Shown: one piece after another, positions 4,896 through 20,957 of the stretch
How positions within the stretch are numbered: the first letter of the stretch is position 1
Layout: the number at the start of each line of letters is the position of its first letter
IMG/VR virus record: IMGVR_UViG_3300031565_000449
Location: 1 to 21,380 of that record
Length of the DNA stretch: 21,380 bases
Reading direction: 5' to 3' (one strand)
DNA from: a virus
Position numbers and translations under genes: made by a program
The notes under the pieces: generated by a model
Told to the model about the DNA's origin: nothing
Database searches by the model: none
The model's input: only the letters and a program-made list of their open reading frames with translations

Positions 4896-5306
4896 TTATA
4901 ATAATTTCATCATTTCTGCGTTATAAGCATCTGCTTTTATATATCCATTACCTTCATACACCTCTATTAAAGATTCGTGTTTTAGTAATGCATATCCATA
5001 TTTGCATCCACTTAACTTTAGCGTGTGACTTAGTGTTTGAACTAAATACGACAACGCTTTTTTTCTTTTCTTCCTGTTTTTGTATTCTATGTTGGATATA
5101 ATCCAATCGCACCAACCTACTTTTGAGTTAGTTACATACATAAAACCTGCGCAAACAGGTGTGTCTTTGTCGTAAACTATAAATCCGCCTTTGCCGTTAT
5201 CTGGAAGAAAATCTTGGGGGACGGGTGTCCATCTCCAATCTTTCCACCACTTTAGCAAAATGGTTTCATAATCTTTATTATTTAATTTTCTTATAGTAAA
5301 TTCCAT
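4896..5306 (-). CDS. GNAT-like N-acetyltransferase, 136 aa
   Basis: The length and layout fit a compact GNAT fold: an N-terminal strand and helix (IRKLNNKDYETIL), a Trp-rich loop (KWWKDWRW, residues 19-26), central strands (GGFIVYD, VCAGFMYVT), the core strand (VGWCDWIIS, 63-71), and a C-terminal motif B-like segment (ESLIEVYEGNGYIKA, 111-125) matching the YExxGF element of the family. The acetyl-CoA pyrophosphate loop, normally Q/R-xx-GxG/A, should follow the core strand, but here it reads NRKKRKKAL with no glycine. Similar small proteins sit among virion genes of other Bacteroidota and marine phages, as I recall. The substrate is unknown; a phage structural protein or host target is possible. 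The gene opens the segment leading to the internal virion proteins, and a promoter-like box lies six bases upstream of its ATG. Confidence 0.72.
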   Translation of the reverse strand: MEFTIRKLNNKDYETILLKWWKDWRWTPVPQDFLPDNGKGGFIVYDKDTPVCAGFMYVTNSKVGWCDWIISNIEYKNRKKRKKALSYLVQTLSHTLKLSGCKYGYALLKHESLIEVYEGNGYIKADAYNAEMMKLL

Positions 5307-5326: not shown

Positions 5327-6118
5327 CTAAGGATTACTTTTGAAGACTTCTGAATCGACAGTAAATAGTTCTACTGCGTCTGTATTATTGTTTGTTATCT
5401 TGAACTCCATAAAGTATCCAGTTGCACCATAAGATTCAGCAACAGGGTCTTTTAACGCTAATATATAAGCTTGAACAGGCACTTGTTGACCTGGTGTTAA
5501 TGCAGTTGGATTTACCACAATAGTCTTTCTGTCACTTGATATTTCAGTTATAGGCCCTATCTCTATGGGATCTGAAAAGTCATTTGGATTAGGTCCTACA
5601 AAATTACTATAATAAACATCGTCTCCAATTGAAATCATTGAAGTTACTTTTGAAGAAAACTCAATAGTTATTAGGTTTGGAGAAATGCCTGTTGAATTAA
5701 GGTTTCTACCGACACCCTGAGTTGATCTTAGGGATAGGTTTTTAGAACCTGTTATTCTTTTAATATACGCAAAGTAGCTACCTTCTTTTTCTACAAAATC
5801 AGTATTTGACATGAATCCTGCACCAAGATCTGTTGTCAAGTTAATATCCCATGAATCATCACTTTCAAGCTCAATGGTCTTGAAAACTTTTACAGTTGTA
5901 GGCTCTTGATTAAATACACCTGTAAGCGTAGATGGGTAGTTTACACCATAGTATTGATTTCTAACATCGCCTGTATTGTGTCTATAAAGATTACCACCCT
6001 TAAATGTATAAAGATACTGATTCATGGCCAATATAAAATCAGGGTAATAGCTGTAAAAAGAAGGCCACCCTTTTACAGATTCGCTGTATGTTAAAGTATA
6101 ATTAAGTTCTGCTGCCAT
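5327..6118 (-). CDS. Tail structural protein with hub-type GW-SF motif, 263 aa
   Basis: The N-terminal 90 residues carry the pattern YSESVKGWPSFYSYYPDF, then a YTFKGGNLYRHN segment, a YYGVNYPS turn and VKVFKTIELES. I recognise this series from the last part of large T7 gp12/P22 gp10-like tail hub proteins of marine and Bacteroidota podoviruses. Here it forms a free-standing small protein. The remainder is beta-rich, with DDVYYSNF and a conserved-looking TEISSDRKTIVV segment. No signal peptide or membrane segment is present. It follows the 307-aa adhesin-like gene by 10 nt and ends 20 nt before the acetyltransferase. Probable role: part of the tail tip or hub complex. The coding call is firm, the detailed role inferred. 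Confidence 0.65.
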   Translation of the reverse strand: MAAELNYTLTYSESVKGWPSFYSYYPDFILAMNQYLYTFKGGNLYRHNTGDVRNQYYGVNYPSTLTGVFNQEPTTVKVFKTIELESDDSWDINLTTDLGAGFMSNTDFVEKEGSYFAYIKRITGSKNLSLRSTQGVGRNLNSTGISPNLITIEFSSKVTSMISIGDDVYYSNFVGPNPNDFSDPIEIGPITEISSDRKTIVVNPTALTPGQQVPVQAYILALKDPVAESYGATGYFMEFKITNNNTDAVELFTVDSEVFKSNP

Positions 6119-6128
6119 ATGTTTTTTT

Positions 6129-7052
6129 TTAAGGGCCTACACAATTTTGTATACTGCTCACAACCCCTTGTGTTACTGTTATTACTTGATTGTTATCCAT
6201 TATATAGTTTTGATCAGTTGCTCTGCTTACTCCATCATGATCTAAAAAGACAGGATTGTTAACTATTGGATAGGGATTTGTTTCATTTATAAATCTACCA
6301 AAATACAAGGTAGTATTTGTGGCCTGACAAATATTACCTGCGCCTATACCCCTAGCTTCAAATGAAGGCAAAGCAGCAGGACATCGAACATTTATACCCC
6401 AAGCAGTATCGGCACAGGGGCCTAATACTTGAATAGTTACAAGACCTGGTAGTCTGTTGGGTTTAGGAACGATTAACAAGTTATCCTGACTTTGTCCACC
6501 TCTAACATCATCTCCGCTATTTATAGTTACTGATTGAGGCGTTGGGCTTCCAGGCAACCAACCTGTTCCATCAAACCCATCGAAAAAAGCATAGTTGCTT
6601 GTGTTCGGAGTGTTAGGAACGCATGTATTTGTGGGGCTTCCTAATATTGTAAATGCATCTGCAACTCCACTTGTGGATTGTATGTTTCCATCATCAGGAG
6701 ATGAAACTCTGTTGTAGAATACTCCGTCATAAAACACCCTAATCCCATCTGGTATACTAGCGGGATTAAAATATATTGAAATAGCTCCTGTATCATTTTC
6801 ATCTGTACCTGCGTTAAATTGTAATTGATAAAGCCCTGTTGCACCCGAAGGAGGACTTATTGTTCCTCCACAAGGTATACCACATTGCTCACAAATAAAC
6901 GAAGGTCCTAGTTCTCCATTTAATTGATACCTGTATGTATCATTGCTCTGATAGTATCCGTCTGCAGATTTTGTCAGTAAGTTGGCATCGTCATAAACAG
7001 CTGTTGCTGTTAAAAAATCTGATGAATCAATATATTTATTTAATAAACTCAT
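6129..7052 (-). CDS. Adhesin-like tail protein with two terminal repeat modules, 307 aa
   Basis: A beta-rich, Gly/Asn/Thr/Pro-rich and Cys-containing protein without membrane segments. Residues 18-57 (AVYDDANLLTKSADGYY, then YRYQLNGELG and a closing Cys) and 267-304 (VFLDHDGVSRATDQNY, then VITVTQGVV and a closing Cys) are two copies of one module: aromatic, Asp-containing turn, small residues, aromatic, a short strand, a Gly turn and a Cys. The same pattern recurs in the C-terminal part of the adjacent hub protein. Such modules are frequent in distal tail proteins of Bacteroidota phages as I recall, and suit binding to a surface polysaccharide or receptor, but no known binding site can be pointed to. 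It follows the hub gene by 10 nt (AAATTAAATT leader). Likely a tail fibre, tip or receptor-binding component. Confidence 0.6.
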   Translation of the reverse strand: MSLLNKYIDSSDFLTATAVYDDANLLTKSADGYYQSNDTYRYQLNGELGPSFICEQCGIPCGGTISPPSGATGLYQLQFNAGTDENDTGAISIYFNPASIPDGIRVFYDGVFYNRVSSPDDGNIQSTSGVADAFTILGSPTNTCVPNTPNTSNYAFFDGFDGTGWLPGSPTPQSVTINSGDDVRGGQSQDNLLIVPKPNRLPGLVTIQVLGPCADTAWGINVRCPAALPSFEARGIGAGNICQATNTTLYFGRFINETNPYPIVNNPVFLDHDGVSRATDQNYIMDNNQVITVTQGVVSSIQNCVGP

Positions 7053-7062
7053 AATTTAATTT

Positions 7063-10000
7063 TTAAGGACAGAAGAATATATTAGCATTCCACCCCGTTG
7101 CTTGATCATAATAAAAAGCATTATTGTTTCCGCTCTTCAAATACCAACCTGTAGGTATCTCTCTTAATGGGGAATCAATTGCTTTGCTTGTATATATTTT
7201 AGTTCCTGTTGATGGATTTCCTGCCTGTTGATTGAAACTATAGTAGTAAGAAATATAGTATGTCGGATAAGGAAATGTGTTTTTTGCATTACACGCTGCA
7301 GTACCCGACACAAATGGAACTACGTTATTGTTGTCTTTCCAATCTTCGCTAAAACAGCATCCGCTTGTTGAGCAACCCGTGCTACATCCATTTACTGATG
7401 CAGGAGCGATACCGAAAGTAAAAAATTGACATTGTGGTGTTCCTGACGTTAGGGATACTACCCCTGTAGCGCTTTGATCATATTCAAGAGCTAATCCCGA
7501 GGGATTACCACCTACGTTTGTGTAAGTCCACCATCCATCAGGAAGCTCAGTTCCTGTCAAATATTCAGACAGGTATAACCTATCGTTAAAATATGGGTGT
7601 GCTGGTGAATTGTTGGGTGTCTGAGCAAAAAAGTACTCAGTAGTAAATCCAATCGCATTATTTCCTATCGCATCACAAGTGCTAATTGCAGGACCCTCTT
7701 GAGTATATATAAATACTGAATATGATGGAGGGGGTGCGTTTTGTGTAACTGTAGCTGTAATAATCAACACCTTAGTCTCATCACAATATCCGTGAGTAAA
7801 GTCCTCGTTTGATGGATTATTAAAATCAGGATTGCCTGCCCATGAAAACACAGGAGCAGATGAAAAGCTGTAATTAGGCGCTAAAGTAACACTTGATGTG
7901 AATGTTGATACTGCACCTGGTACAGCTGTTTTAACAGTTCCTGAAGCATCACCTCCAATTGTGTATCCCGCTGCATCTCCTGTAATGTTGTTTTGAACCG
8001 TTAAAGTTATAGTAGTGCTTTCACATCCTGAAATATCAATACTCAAGACATTTGAAGATGCCCCTATTTCCATATATCCTATTCTATTTCCATCAGCCCC
8101 AAGTGCATAAAACCCTGCGCTAAGACTAGCTCCTGTTTGATTGTTTGAAACAATATCTCCAACCTCAGGGTATGTTAATAGTGGATTTCCGTCATGAGTG
8201 TATTCTGTCGTTCCTGTTAATTCATTACAGCATATTTCTGTTGCGCTTGGCTGAGAGTCTGTGCTTCCCAAAAATTCAGGCTCTGTTACTCCACAACCAC
8301 ATGAATTAAATGTAATATTTAAAGCTGCGGGAACTGAAGTAAATTCAGTAGCGGATATTACGGCAAAAGCCCCTGGCCCAATAACCTCGCTATCAGCAAT
8401 TCCATCACAATCAAAGTAAGAAACCGTTTCGTTTCCTCCACCTGTGTTAGTTACTGTATATTGATTTGCAATTTCAGTACAATCAGCTGCAGATGAAACC
8501 TGTATAAATGTAACTGTATCTGTTTGTCCTGGAGCCTCGGCTTGAACTGAATAATGACAAGTATCCACACCTTCTCCAAAAGACTGAGCCAAAACAATAT
8601 CTCCAACTTCCATAGGACCTGTTGCATATTCCGTGGAAGGAGTTAACCCTGAACCTGGAGCTAAACATTGTAGCAATTCAAAAGTTGCAGGGGGAGTGCA
8701 ATCACAACATGCGTCTGTTGGACTTGAATCGTCATAACACAAAGTTATAGGAGTTGGCTCTCTTAAATCCCAAACCAAATACAAATAATCTTTAGCTGAA
8801 GTGTAGTTAAAAGATGCTTGATAGTTTTCAGGCCCTCCTGTTATTGGTGTAGCTGTATTAAGGAATGGCAGCAATGCAGGTATATCTACTTCGTTAAAGT
8901 TTGAATTTGAAGCAAAGTATTTAAACTTATCTGTGCTTGAATCAAACTCATACGTTTGCCCTGGATTTTGTCTACTTTCCATTATAACAGTTGCTCCTTC
9001 TGGTGGTAAAGCTCCAAATGAAGATTGACCTGTTGATTGACTAAATAATGAAACTCCGTCTTCTTCTAATACCACTACGTTTGTGCTATATGGACTCGTA
9101 TCTACGCCAAGTTGCCACCTGTATCTTGTTGTTGTAGTAAGACTTGCATCTCCTGAAAAGTTTATAACAATTTCTTTTACCGTTATAGTTTCTGCTTGAG
9201 GACAATTGAAATCAATAACATATGTAGACTCCTCTAATGGAGTTATAACAACATTGGCATTTGTTGGGTTGTTTTGATTTTTTGTAAAAGTCACAAAACC
9301 TACTCCCGATACATCCTGATTTACAACCTCAATTCCATTGTACTCTATAGCTATATTTACTTGACCCGTAACATTGTAATCAAACTGAACATCTCCAATA
9401 ATGGTTGTTAAGTTGACGGCAATTTCATAGGGGTTGAAAGTGCCTTGCAAGGACAACGTATATCCACAAACTCTTTCAATTGGCGGTTGTGGAATTACTG
9501 ATGTGTTAGAACTTAAAACATATTCGTTCATGTATGGATCAAATCCACCCAACTTTTGAGTCTCAAAAGAAGATGTAAATAAATCCCTAAACCATGAGCG
9601 CATACCTACTTCAGATATTACTCCTAGCTGATCTGTTTTTGCGCTACCACCCTTAAGCTGTATTACAGAACTTCTTTTAGCATCTGTAAAGAAAACATCA
9701 TATCCATATGATGTAAAGCTTTCAGGGTTATTACTAATTCCATACTCTTCTATTCTAGCCAATTGAGTTCCTAAAACCTCTGGAACAGAGGTAATTGCTC
9801 CACCTGCAGCTGCATCAGACAAAAGGTTTTTTCCAACTAAAACATAAGATATTTTATCCTCTTGCAGGGTAAGTATATCGGTTTGTCTAGCATGCATCTT
9901 TCTTATAGACCCGTAAGCTGTTTCTAGAGTTTTAAAGTTTGACAAAGCAAGATTAAACTGATTTAGCTTGTTTAAGTTTGTTTCTTGATTAAACACGCCA

Positions 10001-13000
10001 CTATAAGTAATATCGGCAAATCTATTTGCTTGCTTATATTGTTCCTCAGATACTGAGGTAACTTTTTCTCCTAATTGTATATATGGCTTTGTTAGTCCTG
10101 ACAAAACAAAGTTTTCTTCTACGCCATTGCCAAATGTGTAGCAATTAAAAAACGATAAATCAACCACAGCAGGCAAAGAAGCGCTTTGATCTTGATCAAA
10201 ATCACCTGTTCCTGACATATGATATCCATTTTCAATATCAAATGTCTGATTGTTTTCATAATACAATTCATCATTTGCCTCTAATGGCTCTGTTTCAAAA
10301 ACAGTTAAACTAGACGCTCTTTCAATTTGTATGTTTACGCCCGCATATGACCCCCTCTTGTCAGGTGAGCTACATTTAGGAGTACCTGGAGACCACCAAA
10401 AGAACAAGTTATTATTATTTGGTCTTCCATCTGCACTATTAGCGTCTTGCCTTTGAAAACCAACATAGCTTTGTCCACCACTACCTCTAACAGAGTAATC
10501 TGCAAAACCTTTTATATCATCATATTGGTTTACTACATTTATAGTGTCATCACTTCCAGAAGTAATTCCACTTGTAAGGTCAATCCTGTCTCCTACAATA
10601 AAAGAATGTAAATTAGCATAGTCTGTGGAGGCAACAAAATTTTTATCATAAACATATTCTCTACTACCACACCTGCTTCCTCTACGTCTTCTTTTTGCGT
10701 CAAACTTTATATTAATCAAAGATCCCGCAGGAATATCTATATCTATAAATTCATCCCCTCCGCCTACAGCATCGGGATTTTCAAAAGAAACACTAACCGC
10801 AACGACAGGATAATTATCTCCACCACTACCTCTTCTTTCTACAAAAGAATTAGGAGGTTTGTTAGCCGCAAAATTAGAAGGCTTTAACCTCATGTATGTG
10901 CCTGTTGGCTGACCACATGTTCCTTCAATTACATCACCATCTGCATTTTTTTTACATAAAAAATCTTCAGCTTCAGATCCAAAACCTAAAACCTTAGTAG
11001 ATGCGCAATTTAAAACAGGGCCATTGGTGTCTGATTTAATGTATAAAATAGAGTTGTCTTTTACTTTATCTCTATTATCTCCATCTAATAAGTAATATGC
11101 ATCACCTGTCTCTTCTTCTCTGAAAAATATATTACTATAAATCGTTCGGTATAGCCCCTTTGATTCCTTTATAACAAACTTATATTTAGTTGCCCAATAA
11201 GGAGGGTAGCTATTCATTGTTACCCTAATGTTATTTTTTTCTATTGATTTATTACATGGAACAAATACGGTGTTATCTGTATCAACTAAAGCAGTTGATG
11301 ATCTACCATATTCATCCATATATACAACTCCTACTTCATAATCTCTGTTGCTGTGTAAAGACTCTTTTGAAGAACTTTGAGAATATAAGCCTGTCGCACT
11401 TACGCATTGCAAATATTCATAAGCAATTACTTCTGGAACAACGGCAACAGGAGGTGTTACTGTTTGGTCAAATTCTTGAAATTTAATAGCAGGTAAAGTA
11501 AAGCTTATTTCTGTACTTCCCTGAGAAGCGCCAATCAATATTCCTTGAGGACTAGAGGTTAGACCAAAACCAACTTTTGAAAATCCGCTTTTAGCTACTG
11601 CGCCACAAACAAATACATCTGTAAGAGACGTTCCCTCGTCACCCGTTCCCGCAGGATTCCCTATACACGGGTTGTCTGCAATAGGAACAAACTCTTGTAC
11701 AGCTGCTATAAACTCTGGGCTAATTGCCATTTCATAAACACTAGAATAATCTTGCTGTAAAACAAATAGAAAAGTTTCTACAAATTCATTTTCAGGCTCA
11801 CTACCATCTGGATATGAGGGGTCTCCTGTGAATCCTGCGCTAATAAATGAAAAGTCAACACCTATTTGAGCGCCTTCTTCTAATATTATATTATCTCCTC
11901 CAAAATCAATAGTTGCGGTAGCGTTATTAACTGAGTTAGAACCATCTATGCTATATGTAAAATTAGATAAACTTCCTGTTATTTCATCAGCAGACAATGA
12001 TTCACTAATTAACTCTAAGTCATAATCCAAGTAAATATCAGCTCCGTTCTCATTAACAATATCATATCCATCTACATAGTTTCCATACATAAGCCTATTA
12101 CCCATAATGGTTTGTGCTTGTGCTTTTAAAGGAACGTTGTCATATAATCTAAGCAATTGCTCTTCGGGAAGAGTAGTATATATTTTTTTGTTTGTAAATG
12201 TAATAGACTGCTCAACATTGTCTAGCCATCCTTCATTTACTTTATTAAACCTCTCAATGACATTTACACTTTGACTTGTGCTAAATTTAAAAATTACGTC
12301 AATGTCTTTTACATTTCTTCCACCTGTTTCAAAATTAATTGAAACGCTATTGAAGATATTCCTCATACCCTCTTGATTGTAATTCGAATAATCAAAATTA
12401 AAAGGACCTGGGGTGAATGCATACTCACTAAATGGAGACATAGCGGAGTATTCTCCGTCCTCATATTGCCATCTATAAGCAAAGCTTATCAAAATTTCTT
12501 CCATGTAGTTTTCCCCTCCTCCGACTTTAAATTGTTGAATTGTAGGAGCGTTAAGTGGTGGCGCTAAAATAACGCCTATATCCTGTTCTGTAATTTGATC
12601 AACTGTCGTATTAACATCAGGCTGTAAATAACTTCTTGTTATGTTTATCTTTCTTGGTGGATTTAGATTATCTGTAAAAAACAATAAATCACCAATTAAA
12701 TTTAAACCATTAATCAAATAATCCTTATCAAAGTTCAAAATTGATGTCGAAATAACATGGTATGTTAAGGCGAAATTTCTTACGTTGTATGATACAATCA
12801 AATCTACTTTTCCCGTAGATGAATTAAGATTGTTTTCGTCATGAATAAACCAATATATGGTTTCGTTTGCTCCATCTTCGTAAGCTCCAATGCATTTCGC
12901 TTGATTGCTTAGTTGTGCGTTTTGAAATAAAACTTGAACCAATAATTCATTACCCTTAGAGTTTTCTACAGCACCTATTTCCGTGCCTTCAGTTGACCCT

Positions 13001-13104
13001 AACCGAACATTTAAAGCATCAATGTATTCACCTTGTGGAACAAGGCGCTCATCAACGCTTTTATTCATGCGTCCTTGTATAAAATTCTTTTGAATCTTAG
13101 GCAT
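7063..13104 (-). CDS. Giant tail hub (muzzle/nozzle) protein with C-terminal adhesive-like modules, 2013 aa
   Basis: The N-terminus (residues 10-49: QGRMNKSVDERLVPQGEY, IDALNVRLGSTEGTE, GAVEN) is the opening I recognise from crAss-like muzzle proteins and T7 gp12/P22 gp10-like hubs. Further hub landmarks follow in order: a fibronectin-like SNRDYEVGVVYMDEYGRSS near 583-605, RRRRGSRCGSREYVYDKNF near 805, GYDVFFTDAKR to GMRSWFRDLF near 1131-1173, DPYMNEYVLSSN near 1190 and DYLYLVWDLR near 1440. After a Cys cluster (CCDC, about 1466) come some 550 residues of beta-rich, Cys-rich sequence with about four copies of a short module (roughly 1499-1520, 1657-1693, 1839-1892, 1969-2013) related to the modules of the next gene. 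The core would plug and extend the portal channel; the C-terminal part probably displays receptor-binding domains. The reading frame is unbroken, and the start lies one base after the ring protein stop. Confidence 0.85.
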   Translation of the reverse strand: MPKIQKNFIQGRMNKSVDERLVPQGEYIDALNVRLGSTEGTEIGAVENSKGNELLVQVLFQNAQLSNQAKCIGAYEDGANETIYWFIHDENNLNSSTGKVDLIVSYNVRNFALTYHVISTSILNFDKDYLINGLNLIGDLLFFTDNLNPPRKINITRSYLQPDVNTTVDQITEQDIGVILAPPLNAPTIQQFKVGGGENYMEEILISFAYRWQYEDGEYSAMSPFSEYAFTPGPFNFDYSNYNQEGMRNIFNSVSINFETGGRNVKDIDVIFKFSTSQSVNVIERFNKVNEGWLDNVEQSITFTNKKIYTTLPEEQLLRLYDNVPLKAQAQTIMGNRLMYGNYVDGYDIVNENGADIYLDYDLELISESLSADEITGSLSNFTYSIDGSNSVNNATATIDFGGDNIILEEGAQIGVDFSFISAGFTGDPSYPDGSEPENEFVETFLFVLQQDYSSVYEMAISPEFIAAVQEFVPIADNPCIGNPAGTGDEGTSLTDVFVCGAVAKSGFSKVGFGLTSSPQGILIGASQGSTEISFTLPAIKFQEFDQTVTPPVAVVPEVIAYEYLQCVSATGLYSQSSSKESLHSNRDYEVGVVYMDEYGRSSTALVDTDNTVFVPCNKSIEKNNIRVTMNSYPPYWATKYKFVIKESKGLYRTIYSNIFFREEETGDAYYLLDGDNRDKVKDNSILYIKSDTNGPVLNCASTKVLGFGSEAEDFLCKKNADGDVIEGTCGQPTGTYMRLKPSNFAANKPPNSFVERRGSGGDNYPVVAVSVSFENPDAVGGGDEFIDIDIPAGSLINIKFDAKRRRRGSRCGSREYVYDKNFVASTDYANLHSFIVGDRIDLTSGITSGSDDTINVVNQYDDIKGFADYSVRGSGGQSYVGFQRQDANSADGRPNNNNLFFWWSPGTPKCSSPDKRGSYAGVNIQIERASSLTVFETEPLEANDELYYENNQTFDIENGYHMSGTGDFDQDQSASLPAVVDLSFFNCYTFGNGVEENFVLSGLTKPYIQLGEKVTSVSEEQYKQANRFADITYSGVFNQETNLNKLNQFNLALSNFKTLETAYGSIRKMHARQTDILTLQEDKISYVLVGKNLLSDAAAGGAITSVPEVLGTQLARIEEYGISNNPESFTSYGYDVFFTDAKRSSVIQLKGGSAKTDQLGVISEVGMRSWFRDLFTSSFETQKLGGFDPYMNEYVLSSNTSVIPQPPIERVCGYTLSLQGTFNPYEIAVNLTTIIGDVQFDYNVTGQVNIAIEYNGIEVVNQDVSGVGFVTFTKNQNNPTNANVVITPLEESTYVIDFNCPQAETITVKEIVINFSGDASLTTTTRYRWQLGVDTSPYSTNVVVLEEDGVSLFSQSTGQSSFGALPPEGATVIMESRQNPGQTYEFDSSTDKFKYFASNSNFNEVDIPALLPFLNTATPITGGPENYQASFNYTSAKDYLYLVWDLREPTPITLCYDDSSPTDACCDCTPPATFELLQCLAPGSGLTPSTEYATGPMEVGDIVLAQSFGEGVDTCHYSVQAEAPGQTDTVTFIQVSSAADCTEIANQYTVTNTGGGNETVSYFDCDGIADSEVIGPGAFAVISATEFTSVPAALNITFNSCGCGVTEPEFLGSTDSQPSATEICCNELTGTTEYTHDGNPLLTYPEVGDIVSNNQTGASLSAGFYALGADGNRIGYMEIGASSNVLSIDISGCESTTITLTVQNNITGDAAGYTIGGDASGTVKTAVPGAVSTFTSSVTLAPNYSFSSAPVFSWAGNPDFNNPSNEDFTHGYCDETKVLIITATVTQNAPPPSYSVFIYTQEGPAISTCDAIGNNAIGFTTEYFFAQTPNNSPAHPYFNDRLYLSEYLTGTELPDGWWTYTNVGGNPSGLALEYDQSATGVVSLTSGTPQCQFFTFGIAPASVNGCSTGCSTSGCCFSEDWKDNNNVVPFVSGTAACNAKNTFPYPTYYISYYYSFNQQAGNPSTGTKIYTSKAIDSPLREIPTGWYLKSGNNNAFYYDQATGWNANIFFCP

Positions 13105-13105
13105 A

Positions 13106-14029
13106 TTACTTTATCCATTTATTTTGGCCCCTTAGATTCATTAATAATCGTCCAGGGTGTATATTACTCAATCTTAATTTTGCATTCCTTAAAAGGGCTG
13201 ATTTTTCTTTTCTAACCCTATTTATAATAAACTCCTGAACACCTATTTTGCTGTTTAAGATTACGTACTTGATATAGGCGTATATAAATTCTTCAAATAA
13301 TTTATTTACACTAATCTTTGAGGCATCGCCTTTTTCCATTCCATCAGAAACATATTCAAGAACGCATAGTTCATTTGCCATATCAGAGCTAAAATTAATA
13401 ACTCCGCTCGCTTTATTTATTTTAAACGTAGGATTTTGATTTGCTGTTTCTGTGTTTAACCCATATCTTCCTCCAACAGGGTATTCAAAATACCAAAGTC
13501 CATTGTAAAAATATCCTTCTTGATTATTATAAGGACTTTGACTGTTTAAGTAAATACTTTTCTTTCCACCTGTAATTCTTTGTAAATCAACCGTTGATGT
13601 TGATGGTTTTAGTATATTTCCATCGTGATCAAATAAAATTCTACAATTGTTGTCTTGCAAATAAGCATCGCTCCAATTTGTTTGAATATTTTCTGTAAGT
13701 GGCATAAGCGTACCATTTTTATACAATGATAATCTCACCCAATTAACATAATCATGCGGAAGAACGTATCTTAGTGTGTCGCAAACCTCTAGCTCTAAAA
13801 CCTTAATTTCCTTCATTGAATCATAGTTCAATTCTTGAATAGCTCTTTTTGCATGAAACAACACATTGTATCTTTCAACATTGTTTATCAATTTATCATT
13901 ACCTACATACATGAGCATAAAATTGGTTACAATATCATCTAAAGTCATGTATTGATATGAACCCCAATTCTCATCCTCAGGAAGGTTTCCGTTGTTTTCG
14001 TAATATTGATACTCTGTTAAAAATGCCAT
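13106..14029 (-). CDS. Tail ring/tubular (stabilization) protein, T7 gp11/P22 gp4-like, 307 aa
   Basis: The N-terminal segment MTLDDIVTNFMLMYVG (28-43), followed by ERYNVLFHAKRAIQELNYD (52-70) and LPHDYVNWVRLS (90-101), is a pattern I recognise from the tail-tubular or ring proteins of crAss-like and related podoviruses. A central Tyr/Gly-rich beta region (160-220) and a C-terminal helical pair (about 235-290) follow; the chain ends strongly basic. Family members form a ring between the connector and the hub. The gene lies exactly between another connector-type gene (2 nt upstream, TAATTATG) and the hub (1 nt downstream, TAATATG), which supports stoichiometrically coupled translation. The ring function is inferred from family resemblance and position. 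Confidence 0.75.
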   Translation of the reverse strand: MAFLTEYQYYENNGNLPEDENWGSYQYMTLDDIVTNFMLMYVGNDKLINNVERYNVLFHAKRAIQELNYDSMKEIKVLELEVCDTLRYVLPHDYVNWVRLSLYKNGTLMPLTENIQTNWSDAYLQDNNCRILFDHDGNILKPSTSTVDLQRITGGKKSIYLNSQSPYNNQEGYFYNGLWYFEYPVGGRYGLNTETANQNPTFKINKASGVINFSSDMANELCVLEYVSDGMEKGDASKISVNKLFEEFIYAYIKYVILNSKIGVQEFIINRVRKEKSALLRNAKLRLSNIHPGRLLMNLRGQNKWIK

Positions 14030-14031
14030 AA

Positions 14032-14991
14032 TTATTGTCCTTCTTGATTATTAGCTTCAGTTTCTTCTGCCTTTCCAAATTGCGCAACTATAGTATCTCT
14101 TATGGATACGCCTGCATACTGAAGGATTTTATTTATCAAATTCGTTTCGTCTGATTTTGGTAATTCAAAATCCTGATAGTCAGCAGCCGTTTCTTCAAAC
14201 GAAGGCTCTCCTCCAGGCAACTGAACATATGTCCAATTGGGATCTTTTGGATACCTTATGTATTGACTAATAACCGTTCCTACCGTGTTAATGCTGTCTG
14301 GGTATACTGTAATGGTATTTCCATATAGAGATGCTGTAGCCCCACCCAATACGTAAGCAGGGTATAGTTTGCTTGGCTGAGTTAAGTGAGATGCGTTTAA
14401 ATAGAATATCTTGTTTTGAGAAACTCTTTCAATTTCTCTCATTGCGCTATTTTTTACAATTGCATATTTATTTCCTAAATCCCATATTTGCGTTCCAACT
14501 AAAGCGGTTTGACTAATTACCTGCTGTACATACCCAAACTCTCCTGTGGTTAGGTTTGAAATAACATCTCCTGCTTGTACGCCTGAACTGGAAAAAGTGG
14601 CCGTGGTGTCTGTAAGTGTTGTAGACGCGGGAGGCGTTACTGAATCTACTAATCCTGAATCAACTAGGGTAGGATAGTAGTTTATCTTGTTAATCAAATA
14701 ATAATCTTCAGGTAAGTCAAATAAATTTAATGAAGAATTGAACAAAGCTTTTGTTGATGAAAAACTATCTACAACCTCTTCTAATCCTTTTACAATATCT
14801 GCATAACCTGTTCCAGACTGTCTAACATTCTGCTTGACATTCCAACTATTATATTGATAAAAGTAATCTTCAAATAAATCTAGCTGAGCTTGTTTTGCAT
14901 ATAAGTTAAAATCATTAGGAGTGATATATCCAAAATTATTCTTATTTGCAATGGAAAGCACAGTAGCTCTGACTGTATTGATTAACGACAT
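14032..14991 (-). CDS. Head-to-tail connector/ring protein, 319 aa
   Basis: The N-terminal helices read SLINTVRATVLSIANKNN and ITPNDFNLYAKQAQLDLFED, followed by FDLPEDYYLINKINYYP (about 92-108). A beta-rich insert covers roughly 115-165, and the C-terminal helix LINKILQYAGVSIRDTIVAQFG (near 285-306) ends in an acidic tail. I recognise this layout as a structural protein placed between capsid and ring protein genes in Bacteroidota podoviruses, where it probably binds the portal base. It is the first gene of a new transcription unit: an intrinsic terminator and a promoter-like box precede it in a 69-nt gap, and there is no Shine-Dalgarno site before the ATG (AGAGCAGAATG). Confidence 0.7.
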   Translation of the reverse strand: MSLINTVRATVLSIANKNNFGYITPNDFNLYAKQAQLDLFEDYFYQYNSWNVKQNVRQSGTGYADIVKGLEEVVDSFSSTKALFNSSLNLFDLPEDYYLINKINYYPTLVDSGLVDSVTPPASTTLTDTTATFSSSGVQAGDVISNLTTGEFGYVQQVISQTALVGTQIWDLGNKYAIVKNSAMREIERVSQNKIFYLNASHLTQPSKLYPAYVLGGATASLYGNTITVYPDSINTVGTVISQYIRYPKDPNWTYVQLPGGEPSFEETAADYQDFELPKSDETNLINKILQYAGVSIRDTIVAQFGKAEETEANNQEGQ

Positions 14992-15891: not shown

Positions 15892-17325
15892 TTAATTAGT
15901 AAAGATGAAGAAGTTGTTAGCACCTAGAGTACATAAAGCTCTTTCAGACAAGAAGTTAACTTCCATCGCATCAAGATCCGATGTAGCTGCTCCTCCTGCA
16001 GAACCTGTAATCCACGTCTTATAACGTCTATCTTCAGTTTCACTCGCTCTATAACGAACATGCAAGAAAGGTCTCTTAGCGTTTTTACCTAACACTTGGT
16101 CATATACTGTTGTAGAACCTGCAGGTACTAATACCCCATTAATAGCTCCACCAACAATATCACCACGCATAGTTGGGTCATTAAGATACTTCCAGTCTGT
16201 TTTATAAAAGTCATAACCTCTACGGAATCCTGAGAAACCTAAATTTAAAGCCATTTCCTTGTCATTGTCAAATAGACCAAAAGAAGCTGCGTTAGAAGCT
16301 CCACCTGCTACGTAACCATTTAATCCAGCTAACATGTCATCAATGTCAAATCCAAATTCACGATTTACGAAAAGCACATTTTCTTCAATAGAACCTTGCT
16401 TATCTAATCTTTGTATGATAGCATCAAAGTCTGTAAGAGCTGTTGGGTTGCCACCGCTCCAAACATTTCCTCTTTCTTCAATTACATAGAACAATCCTTC
16501 AGAACCTTTGTTACCAACACCTGAAGCTACACCTTGAGCGATAGCCGCAACACCTGAATTGGCTTCGGCAGGAACTGCTTCGACCATTGCTGTTTCAAGA
16601 TAGTCTTCGAATCTTAGTCTTGTTTCATGCTCTGATTTTAGATACCACAAGAATCCTGTAGCTCCGTTTTCAGTTGTAACTTCAATCCACCCAATCTGAG
16701 CCATGTCAGATCCACTAACTGCATAGTGGTCTTTGATGATGATTGGTGAATTTTCGAAAATAAAATCATCAGCTTCTAATTGCCCTTGCATACCGAAAGT
16801 TCCTTTTTGAAATTCAGAACCGTAGATAAACAATGAACATTGTACATTTATAGCCATTGACTGACCTGCTGCTTCATAATAAGCTACGTCAATTGTTCCT
16901 GCTGCTGTATCAACAGCAGTAACAAGTGCTTTGTTGCTGTTTGTAGAAGCCGCTGTGCTGTCAGATAACATAATTGTTTGTCCTACTCTAATAGCAATTG
17001 AACCTGTACCAGGTGCAAGTACATCATTAATTGTTAGAGTGGCTGTATCGGATCCCGCTGCTGCTCCCGACTCAACGTCTGTGTATTTAGTGTGTAATCT
17101 TCCTTGCTCTGCCCACTTAATAAGGTCAGAGTTAGAAGGCATTTCAGCGCCTACCATTCGTAAGAATGATGCTACTGTACGATTACCATAACGCTCGAAT
17201 TCTTTTTCATAAGTATCTGGAAGATACTGATTCAAAAAGTCAAAGTTGGTAATGTAGTTTGTCTGTAATAAAACCTGTTCTGAACTTGGTTGTAAGTCAA
17301 ACCCAGGTACTGCATTTACTGCCAT
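15892..17325 (-). CDS. Major capsid protein, HK97-fold, crAss-like type, 477 aa
   Basis: The C-terminal half carries features I recognise from crAss-like capsid proteins: NREFGFDIDDML (about 321-332), WKYLNDPTMRGDI, NGVLVPAGSTTVYDQ, KRPFLHVRYRASETEDRRY (about 414-432) and FLSERALCTLGANNFF close to the end. The N-terminal part (NYITNFDFLNQYLPDTY) would be the arm. Residues of roughly 90-165 form a Thr/Ala/Gly-rich beta insertion (TATLTINDVLAPGTG to VQCSLFIYG), placed like an extended loop or insertion domain. The length is close to the roughly 500 residues I recall for this group. It follows the scaffold-like gene by 26 nt and is followed by a hairpin that could limit readthrough. No separate protease gene is seen in the window. 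Confidence 0.87.
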   Translation of the reverse strand: MAVNAVPGFDLQPSSEQVLLQTNYITNFDFLNQYLPDTYEKEFERYGNRTVASFLRMVGAEMPSNSDLIKWAEQGRLHTKYTDVESGAAAGSDTATLTINDVLAPGTGSIAIRVGQTIMLSDSTAASTNSNKALVTAVDTAAGTIDVAYYEAAGQSMAINVQCSLFIYGSEFQKGTFGMQGQLEADDFIFENSPIIIKDHYAVSGSDMAQIGWIEVTTENGATGFLWYLKSEHETRLRFEDYLETAMVEAVPAEANSGVAAIAQGVASGVGNKGSEGLFYVIEERGNVWSGGNPTALTDFDAIIQRLDKQGSIEENVLFVNREFGFDIDDMLAGLNGYVAGGASNAASFGLFDNDKEMALNLGFSGFRRGYDFYKTDWKYLNDPTMRGDIVGGAINGVLVPAGSTTVYDQVLGKNAKRPFLHVRYRASETEDRRYKTWITGSAGGAATSDLDAMEVNFLSERALCTLGANNFFIFTN

Positions 17326-18518: not shown

Positions 18519-18532
18519 AGCCTATCTAGGCT
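18519..18532 (-). terminator. Short inverted repeat at the portal stop codon
   Basis: AGCCTA and TAGGCT flank two bases across the portal stop codon, followed on the minus strand by TTAAATTTTAT. The physically possible stem is only about 4 bp with a 6-nt loop, so termination here would be weak at best. Confidence 0.22.
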
Positions 18533-20957
18533 CAAATTCTGCTAAGTCAAAACCATCTAAACTATCTTCGTTTGATTCAAAACTAAGAGCTGGCAAATTG
18601 TTTTTACGCTGCTCAATAAGCTTTGATTGTTCTGTATTTGCTTGAGATATTCTATTTGATTTTGCTGTTTCTCTTTGTGACTCTCTATCCCTAAGTGCTT
18701 TTGCTTCTGCTTCTTTTATTCCCATTTGCAAATTAAACTCTAATTGCATAAGCTCGGCCTTAATCGCAGCTTCTCCTTTCATCTTCTCTACAGAGAATTT
18801 AGCTTTAGCCTGCTCAATCTCCATTTGAGCTTGAGTCTCCATTTGAAGTTTTTGCATTGCTGTTTGTGCAGCCATTTGCTGAGACTGCATGTTGATTTGA
18901 GCTTGCTGTTGAGACTTAACCTGTTGAGCTTGTTGCTCCTTATCTTCTTTGGCTTTTCTTCTGACCTTAAGCATTTGATTAGCTAGCTTAATGTTTTTTA
19001 TCTCACGAATATCAATAGCGTCTTCTAAATTAATGTCTTGTTTAGATAGTGCCATTTGAATATTTTGCTCAAGCTGAGCTCTTTGCTCTTCATCTGGAGC
19101 TATTTCAATAAATATCCCAAAGTCGCTTAAATATAGTTGAGATATTTCTTCAAGAATTCCAACATTAAATTTTCCAACCTGATTCACAAACTCTTCTCTA
19201 AAGTCAGAATACTCAATTAAATCTGCAATACGACTAGATAAAGCTGTGCATAATCTTTCACTCATTGCTAATCCCGCATCTAGTATATGACGAGTGGCTG
19301 TGTTGCTACTTAGTGCTGCTAGCTTCTGTAATCCAACTAACGAATAAGAATCAGGTGTTGCTCCGTCTCTTGCTTCATTTAAGCCCGTTACATCGCGAAG
19401 CATTGCCATATAGTGATTATATGTACCCACTAAACTCTGAATTTTTCCTTGACCAGAATTACTATTCAACTGCTGAATAGGAACTTTTGCATTATTGAAA
19501 TCTCCATCTTGTGTAAATGATCTACCGATAACAGAACCTGTTTGGAAGAACATCCTTAATGCATCTTCAGGATTGTACGCTTGCCCTGTTCCTAAATCAA
19601 CTTCATTTAATCCATCCGCATCAATAAACACTCCATCTGGAACGATCCTAGATATTACTTGTTGCATTTTTAGGTGAGTAATTTGAATCAAGTCTGCAAA
19701 CGTAATCATACGCCTAACTAAAGATTCAACCGCTCCTTTATACATTCTTGGTGCGGAAGCAATATATTCAGGATAAACTTCCTGAGAAGCTGATGCAGGT
19801 CGAGCCATATTTTCAGACATTTGCCACTTAAGGAGTATGTTGGTTCCCATAACCATTACCCCCTCATACCAAACATCAATGGTCTTGCTAACTTTTTCAA
19901 AGTTCCCTTCCTCTTGCATTTCTACCGTTGGATTAAAAGTATCTTCTTTTTCAATAACTTTTTCTGCTCCAACCGCATTTGTTTTTTTCTTGTATGTAAA
20001 TGTGTGCGTGGTCTTATAATTAAAGAACAACACAGTAGCGCTATCTTTGCTAAATAAACTATTATTATAATATTGAGATGTATTGTTATAGTCGTACCAA
20101 CTTTGACTGTATTTGGATATTTCATTCATATCAGCTCTAGTTAGACTTGGATCTATTTTCTTAAGCTCAATAATAGGTAGTGTCTTTATTTCGCCCCAAT
20201 AAAAACAATCTTTAAAATGAGGGTCTTCTGTATAACTATACACGACATTTGCAGGATCAACATATTCTATACCTATCCCCGAACCTGGCTTGAAGGAGTG
20301 CTTGCAAATAGAAAGCCCCAAAACCATTTGATCATAATACAATTGTTTTTGTAAATCATGATATCTATTTTCTGCAAGTACAGTATTTATTGCTTCTTCT
20401 TCTGCAATCTCTATGGCAGGCTTGTATTTAATCTGCATGTGCAAAGCTAGCTCCTCATCACTTTCAGGAACTTCATCTTCACTCATTCTGAATGTGTTAA
20501 CACCCATCTGCTTTTGAACCTGTTTCATTATAGGTTTTGCCAACATATCCTTTTCAAGCTCTTCTTGATATTTGCTTCGCTTATCTAAAGACATTCCGTC
20601 CTGAGCATAAGCCTTGACCTTAAATATTCTGTCGGCCATTCCATTTACTACAATATCTACAAACTTAGGAATAATTGGAACGGGTGTCCAATCTAAATTA
20701 AGATAGCTAAGATCACCATCTATTGCTAATTCGTTTTTATACTTTTGAACTGATTGCTCTCCTCGAGCATATAGGCGCAGCCTATGGAAGTCAGCCCATT
20801 GATTATAGAATCGGCTTTGCCCCCCATCTTTTCTAAACCATTCATATTGTATGGCTTGACCTATTTGTAATCCAAACTCAAAACTGTCTTTTACCCTATC
20901 AGACACAAATTGACTTGGAAAACCCTGAGCGTTAATTGCTATTTTTACGTCCTCCAT
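18522..20957 (-). CDS. Portal protein, 811 aa
   Basis: The N-terminal region includes YNQWADFHRLRLYARGEQS (51-69) and LDWTPVPIIPKFVDIVVNGM (88-107), which I recognise from portal proteins of crAss-like and related Bacteroidota phages. Around residues 500-590 follow RDVTGLNEARDGATPDSYS and a helix-rich segment ending in a region (IGIFIEIAPDEEQR-type, near 625) typical of portal clip and stem. The last 150 residues are Gln/Ala/Met/Glu-rich continuous helix (about 655-775), expected for a C-terminal barrel, and end in an acidic DLAEFEPR-type tail. Portals form the dodecameric vertex that the terminase docks on and the connector extends. It starts directly after the terminase stop (TAAATG) and is followed by the scaffold-like gene, the usual head order. 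Confidence 0.87.
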   Translation of the reverse strand: MEDVKIAINAQGFPSQFVSDRVKDSFEFGLQIGQAIQYEWFRKDGGQSRFYNQWADFHRLRLYARGEQSVQKYKNELAIDGDLSYLNLDWTPVPIIPKFVDIVVNGMADRIFKVKAYAQDGMSLDKRSKYQEELEKDMLAKPIMKQVQKQMGVNTFRMSEDEVPESDEELALHMQIKYKPAIEIAEEEAINTVLAENRYHDLQKQLYYDQMVLGLSICKHSFKPGSGIGIEYVDPANVVYSYTEDPHFKDCFYWGEIKTLPIIELKKIDPSLTRADMNEISKYSQSWYDYNNTSQYYNNSLFSKDSATVLFFNYKTTHTFTYKKKTNAVGAEKVIEKEDTFNPTVEMQEEGNFEKVSKTIDVWYEGVMVMGTNILLKWQMSENMARPASASQEVYPEYIASAPRMYKGAVESLVRRMITFADLIQITHLKMQQVISRIVPDGVFIDADGLNEVDLGTGQAYNPEDALRMFFQTGSVIGRSFTQDGDFNNAKVPIQQLNSNSGQGKIQSLVGTYNHYMAMLRDVTGLNEARDGATPDSYSLVGLQKLAALSSNTATRHILDAGLAMSERLCTALSSRIADLIEYSDFREEFVNQVGKFNVGILEEISQLYLSDFGIFIEIAPDEEQRAQLEQNIQMALSKQDINLEDAIDIREIKNIKLANQMLKVRRKAKEDKEQQAQQVKSQQQAQINMQSQQMAAQTAMQKLQMETQAQMEIEQAKAKFSVEKMKGEAAIKAELMQLEFNLQMGIKEAEAKALRDRESQRETAKSNRISQANTEQSKLIEQRKNNLPALSFESNEDSLDGFDLAEFEPR

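Follow-up and report, generated by a model that had tools for sequence, protein, structure and literature searches.

A crAss-type muzzle, the gated structure that ends a podovirus tail, is probably encoded in two pieces by the DNA analysed here, and a 2013-residue protein is its N-terminal chain. The site of the cut carries interchangeable cassettes of modules, one of which forms the C-terminal tail of the protein and would act as an adhesive at the tail tip. This is the best explanation we can offer, and the word probably refers to it as a whole. The crAss muzzle is known as a single gated chain; new here is the split, cassette-bearing variant, of which no description was found in the literature searched, which lacked most subscription papers.

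Genes in the window

The window (the whole stretch of DNA analysed, 21,380 nucleotides, positions 1 to 21,380 of IMG/VR record IMGVR_UViG_3300031565_000449) contains the structural gene block of a tailed phage, with all genes on the minus strand. It holds the portal (18522-20957, minus, phrog_6547), a capsid-type virion protein (15892-17325, minus, phrog_13704) and two virion structural genes (13106-14991, minus), which occupy the positions of the crAss001 ring and tail tubular genes just upstream of the 2013-residue open reading frame. The latter is found at 7063-13104; the preliminary description gave no strand for it. It is read from the minus strand, and the plus-strand frame over the same interval has stops throughout. 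Behind it lie the gene of a 307-residue protein, here called the middle gene (6129-7052, minus; HMM modules and AlphaFold), and a gene for a 263-residue product, the muzzle C-chain (5327-6118, minus; Pfam crAss_MUZ_C). Directly after the C-chain follows a 136-residue gene product (4896-5306, phrog_17252), which is kept in nearly all relatives and is annotated as an acetyltransferase subunit in MW202828, an uncultured podovirus (Manatee Spring) and the nearest complete annotated genome. The group consists mostly of uncultured viruses of Bacteroidetes-type bacteria; single loci are given below by their L numbers where they have to be told apart.

Identity of the protein

The first 755 residues of the 2013-residue protein match phrog_14478 with an E-value of 1.9e-238. 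The muzzle core, residues 1-1198 (9511-13104, minus), has ring-joining, propeller, Ig and crass-fold regions that could be aligned to gp44-type proteins, strongly to gp97 of Cellulophaga phage phi38:1 and gp25 of Flavobacterium phage elemoA (1e-122 in profile alignment) and weakly to crAss001 gp44 itself (4e-6, hhalign probability 87%), where the alignment extends across the length. The C-chain matches Pfam crAss_MUZ_C (E 2.2e-17, 63.7 bits against a cut-off of 27), as members of the gp44 family do, and it aligns to residues 1198-1289 of gp44 and to the C-termini of the phi38:1 and elemoA proteins. Profile searches of the PDB with the N-chain and the C-chain did not recover gp44, although gp44 was present in the PDB set; the link to gp44 comes from Pfam, blastp and hhalign.

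A tail hub with a core ending near residue 1446 had been proposed for this protein. The conserved tail-tip core agrees with the proposal, but the protein is not the whole hub, as the last part is the separate crAss_MUZ_C gene. Likewise, family conservation does fade near residue 1446, but the ancestral hub already stops at about residue 1198, and residues 1200-1446 are a group-wide insertion.

Muzzles of the gp44 family are described as hexamers that gate the tail tip, and no counterpart to the crass domain of the crAss muzzle is known. In an alignment of N-chains the crass region (about residues 750-900) varies more than any other part of the core. The gp44 propeller is seven-bladed in the gp44 structure (PDB 7qok, 7qol, 8ckb; PMC10172136). 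Phage phi13:2 was treated as an outgroup in that work (PMC10172136), and in NCBI taxonomy phi38:1 belongs to Pervagoviridae and phi18:3 to Pachyviridae, neither with the order Crassvirales.

The split of the muzzle chain

The two muzzle halves are encoded by separate open reading frames in all 65 group loci that hold both halves, the window included, at distances of 1 to 3779 bases or with a slight overlap. To our knowledge, the gp44-family muzzle is a single chain in every member described so far, whereas core and MUZ_C lie on separate frames in the window and 64 further loci. Homologous core and C-terminal parts are found in phi38:1 gp97 (1324 residues), elemoA gp25 (1470 residues) and gp060 of Tenacibaculum phage Gundel_1 (1386 residues), but these are single chains. 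The gene order of crAss001 is the same, with the muzzle after a gene of the tail tubular type, and the C-terminal domain of its gp44 corresponds to the C-chain of the window; gp44 differs in being one chain of 1371 residues, with MUZ_C from about residue 1198, and in having no Ig insertion, no module tail and no middle gene at the loop.

Profile alignment was used for locating the cut. Because window residue 1198 (in EYVLSS) and the start of the C-chain (YTLTYSES) adjoin in phi38:1, the window muzzle is cut inside a short beta-propeller hairpin, and we infer which propeller blade holds it. The halves are separated by 4-5 residues (HEKG) in phi38:1, giving the hairpin EYVM-HEKG-VFTTAYS, and their equivalents by about 20 residues in elemoA. 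Both downstream genes of the window have their own ATG behind an A-rich leader.

The muzzle of Cellulophaga phage phi18:3 is cut at the same place, into gp114 (1612 residues) and gp115 (241 residues), both annotated in GenBank as found by virion MS/MS. Its N-chain gp114 has the same Ig-like insertion and a long C-terminal tail; in contrast to the window, this tail is made of a Big_9/cadherin-like domain and a second unclassified stretch, and no middle gene lies between the halves. In a quick core tree with long branches phi18:3 groups with the single-chain phages phi38:1 and Gundel_1, which suggests two origins of the split, or reversals.

Two further muzzle genes are broken in other ways. In Maribacter phage Panino (L090:5777-9690) the gene is annotated as 946 + 320 residues, but its frame breaks elsewhere than the window muzzle, at the equivalent of window residue 1072 or so, and the missing part runs on in another frame; this is probably a sequencing frameshift. 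In L033:4643-9526 the N-chain lies in at least 7 overlapping frames, probably owing to sequencing errors in the contig.

Cassettes at the cut site

After the propeller strand EYVLSS follows an Ig-like insertion, residues 1199-1446 (8767-9510, minus), which is conserved in the group and in phi18:3, whereas phi38:1, elemoA and crAss001 lack it. Next comes a conserved hinge, LCY..s..dACCDC in an alignment of 53 N-chains, residues 1447-1470 (8695-8766, minus). The N-chains of many relatives stop at the hinge, and some relatives repeat it. Tails counted from the end of the motif YLYLVWD are 19-614 residues long and mostly mutually unrelated; in many relatives they comprise just 19-28 residues. In phi18:3 the Big_9 Ig domain (E 1.3e-19) starts exactly at the equivalent junction.

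Loci L005-L010, with an N-chain of 1625 residues, are 84% identical to the window in the core and have a tail of some 175 residues unrelated to that of the window, yet L003, with a core about 72-73% identical, has the window's tail at 77% identity. These comparisons show cassette exchange. The other components of the locus vary as well. The middle protein is fused to the N-chain in L032, and a module found in middle genes (module A, see below) is fused to the N-chain in L037, L040, L048 and others. MW202828 shares the split muzzle, a middle gene with module A and the C-chain, and differs in a tail of 90 residues and a middle gene of 183 residues annotated as 'putative glycosidase'. From these comparisons the cut site is, as far as sequences can tell, a hotspot of interchangeable module cassettes placed on the N-chain, in the middle gene or on the C-chain, and the 567-residue tail of the window is one of them. 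The modular appendix beyond the conserved core proposed earlier is therefore upheld: unrelated tails stand beside a shared core and are exchangeable between phages. This pattern, in which the core is kept while the domain next to it varies and is exchanged, is one expected of receptor-binding proteins.

Two further arrangements were seen in other loci. A DUF5122 beta-propeller is fused to the N-terminus of the C-chain in L021:14159-16039 (E 9.5e-32), and also in L022 and L023. Loci L041, L043, L044 and L047 lack the middle gene and encode in its place an unrelated protein of about 144 residues that matches the C-terminus of phrog_5194.

The tail of the window is carried by five other contigs (L001, L002, L003, L004, L086), against hundreds of core homologues. 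Compared with L003, it is 77% identical (core about 73%) with a dN/dS of about 0.16, a value obtained with synonymous sites near saturation. The tail is under purifying selection among its carriers. The hypervariability that, according to the preliminary description, would have supported receptor binding was not found, the tail being as conserved as the core; variability lies in the presence and type of cassette and not within this tail.

Loci L065 (9001-20881) and L064 have a split muzzle with long linkers, (PT)n or (SPTP)n, in tail, middle gene and C-chain. Three genes lie between their middle gene and C-chain: one for a 2OG-Fe(II) oxygenase (PF13640) of the prolyl-hydroxylase type, one for a radical SAM-SPASM protein and one for a GlcNAc transferase (PF11397, E 9e-36), to whose family hydroxyproline GlcNAc transferases belong. 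This looks like a putative phage-encoded hydroxylation and glycosylation of the phage's own tail-tip linkers. Close relatives of the GlcNAc transferase in IMG/VR were found in the L064 and L065 contigs only.

Modules of the tail and the middle gene

The Cys-rich C-terminal region covers residues 1447-2013 (7066-8766, minus); it had been recognised before, with an end at 8630 that drops about 45 residues. Its Cys content is 3.9% against 0.9% before it (Fisher p = 2.5e-5), and the clusters CCDC, SCGCG and CSTGCSTSGCC are all present as described.

Following the hinge, residues 1471-1545 (8470-8694, minus) form module D and residues 1546-1606 (8287-8469, minus) module C, a small beta domain. The L039 middle gene also contains module C (E 3e-6), and the L073 middle gene has a match to the D-C pair (E 1e-4); no match was found for module D alone. 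Module B copy 1 (SAGFY, Cys-flanked) comprises residues 1607-1697 (8014-8286, minus; profile match 1613-1695) and is followed by an unclassified segment without a match, residues 1698-1800 (7705-8013, minus). Copy 2 (PDGWW, YDQSATG) comprises residues 1801-1893 (7426-7704, minus; profile match 1808-1884), and a Cys-rich linker with CSTGCSTSGCC, residues 1894-1928 (7321-7425, minus), connects it to copy 3 (PTGWY, YDQATG), residues 1929-2013 (7066-7320, minus; profile match 1929-2013).

The module-B profile was built from modules of other phages, with no tail sequence from the window in it. Copies 1, 2 and 3 score 12.8, 6.8 and 5.7 bits, and copy 1 is the sole copy that individually exceeds all 500 shuffles (best shuffle 8.9). 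Jointly, the sum of the top three is 25.3 against 11.9 for the best shuffle, and none of the 500 shuffles had even two matches above 5.5 bits. Copy 3 also pairs with copy 2 (hhalign P 0.002). Three copies of module B together with two other module types are thus supported by the profile comparisons; about four copies of a GWY/YDQATG module had been counted before, of which three stand and the likely fourth (1471-1545) is a different module. An AlphaFold prediction of the tail from six sequences had a mean pLDDT of 31.7, residues 1546-1601 alone being near 80.

The middle protein consists of module A (residues 1-60), a jelly-roll-like domain (about 58-228) and module B (230-305). Module A, of about 57 residues, has repeats in middle genes and, in other phages, in N-chain tails, is homologous to module B (hhalign probability 97.6%, E 2.7e-12) and gave no match among plasmids. 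Neither the tail nor the middle gene had a match in Pfam, NCBIfam or a tblastn search of phage records. The AlphaFold model of the middle protein (pLDDT 88.7) has a beta-sandwich as central domain, and its structural matches in VIA, with Z about 8-10 and at most 9.7 for beta-sandwich folds, included the SIDT1 ectodomain and a collagen-binding domain. These matches are generic to a common beta-sandwich arrangement, and a specific kinship was set aside. Foldseek against the PDB gave nothing below E 0.001, and eight clear relatives were found in BFVD. A related phage fragment (L096, PIVJ01000179.1), binned in a Bacteroidetes metagenome-assembled genome, has a middle gene of 568 residues that is likely a duplication of the 307-residue type.

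Function and alternative explanations

We propose that the separate C-chain would complete the muzzle propeller in trans with the N-chain, and that the cut loop would face outward. The tail modules, possibly braced by disulfides, may form an adhesive skirt suspended from the tail tip. This skirt could bind a glycan or a protein on the surface of the Bacteroidetes host, and the exchange of cassettes would then track changing host surfaces. For gp44, it has been proposed that contact of its crass domain, at the tip of the tail, with the cell surface triggers opening of the gate (PMC10172136). By analogy, the cassette is most likely an exposed, swappable adhesive decoration of the tail tip, and the tail a putative receptor-binding part. 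A fusion of hub and receptor-binding functions in place of separate fibres, as suggested in the preliminary description, is doubtful: MW202828 encodes a separate 648-residue protein, judged fibre-like by its repeats and without a family match. The idea that the muzzle tail replaces fibres was dropped after this gene had been found. As the fibre-like protein is present, the role of main adhesin may not fall to the muzzle tail, and together with the variable crass region this protein casts doubt on a sole receptor-binding role of the tail.

The same fibre-like protein favours a different reading, in which tail and middle gene are passive structural or protective decoration (a stabilising collar, a capsule spacer or general glycan stickiness) and a separate fibre recognises the host. 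The very short tails of many relatives and the frequency of jelly-roll and Ig-like folds in decorations fit this as well, but proteins that face variable surfaces typically swap unrelated payloads next to a conserved core, and cassettes differ even between phages 84% alike in the core; we regard passive decoration as unlikely, though with a real share of the probability. That the tail is instead an integral part of the muzzle, required for assembly, is very improbable. Its conservation among carriers, equal to that of the core, would suit such a role, but this reading is largely refuted by the rarity of the tail among the core homologues and by close relatives with an intact core that have no such tail or unrelated ones.

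In some crAss-like groups conserved genes are interrupted by introns and inteins (PMC7886860), and the muzzle gene of Panino has a frame break elsewhere, so that an intron, intein, frameshift or assembly error might hide a continuous chain in the window. Against this, the same break occurs in 65 loci with varied intervening genes, the intervening frames encode structural modules, and the downstream genes have separate starts. No Rfam intron was found and no intein domain in the Pfam search, and both were rejected; a merely apparent break is scarcely credible. Diversification of the tail by a diversity-generating retroelement might be considered for an exchangeable tail-tip domain, but it is the least credible of these readings: the tail is under purifying selection, and no reverse transcriptase (PF00078) was detected in 38 related records, some near 60 kb and many of them fragments including the window, while controls were detected.

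Within the preferred explanation of a split muzzle with adhesive cassettes, the break might itself be functional, the C-chain closing the gating propeller in trans and cassette binding loosening or displacing it, so that the gate opens. We hold this to be a long shot; if true, the cut site would combine the roles of sensor and trigger. A large lineage with its muzzle cut at one loop, where exchangeable modules and entire genes gather, is a natural experiment on the places at which the muzzle accepts change and on the face that it turns to the host. The cassettes at the cut site are a concrete candidate for how host range evolves in environmental Bacteroidetes phages, for which the cultured phi18:3 offers a test system.
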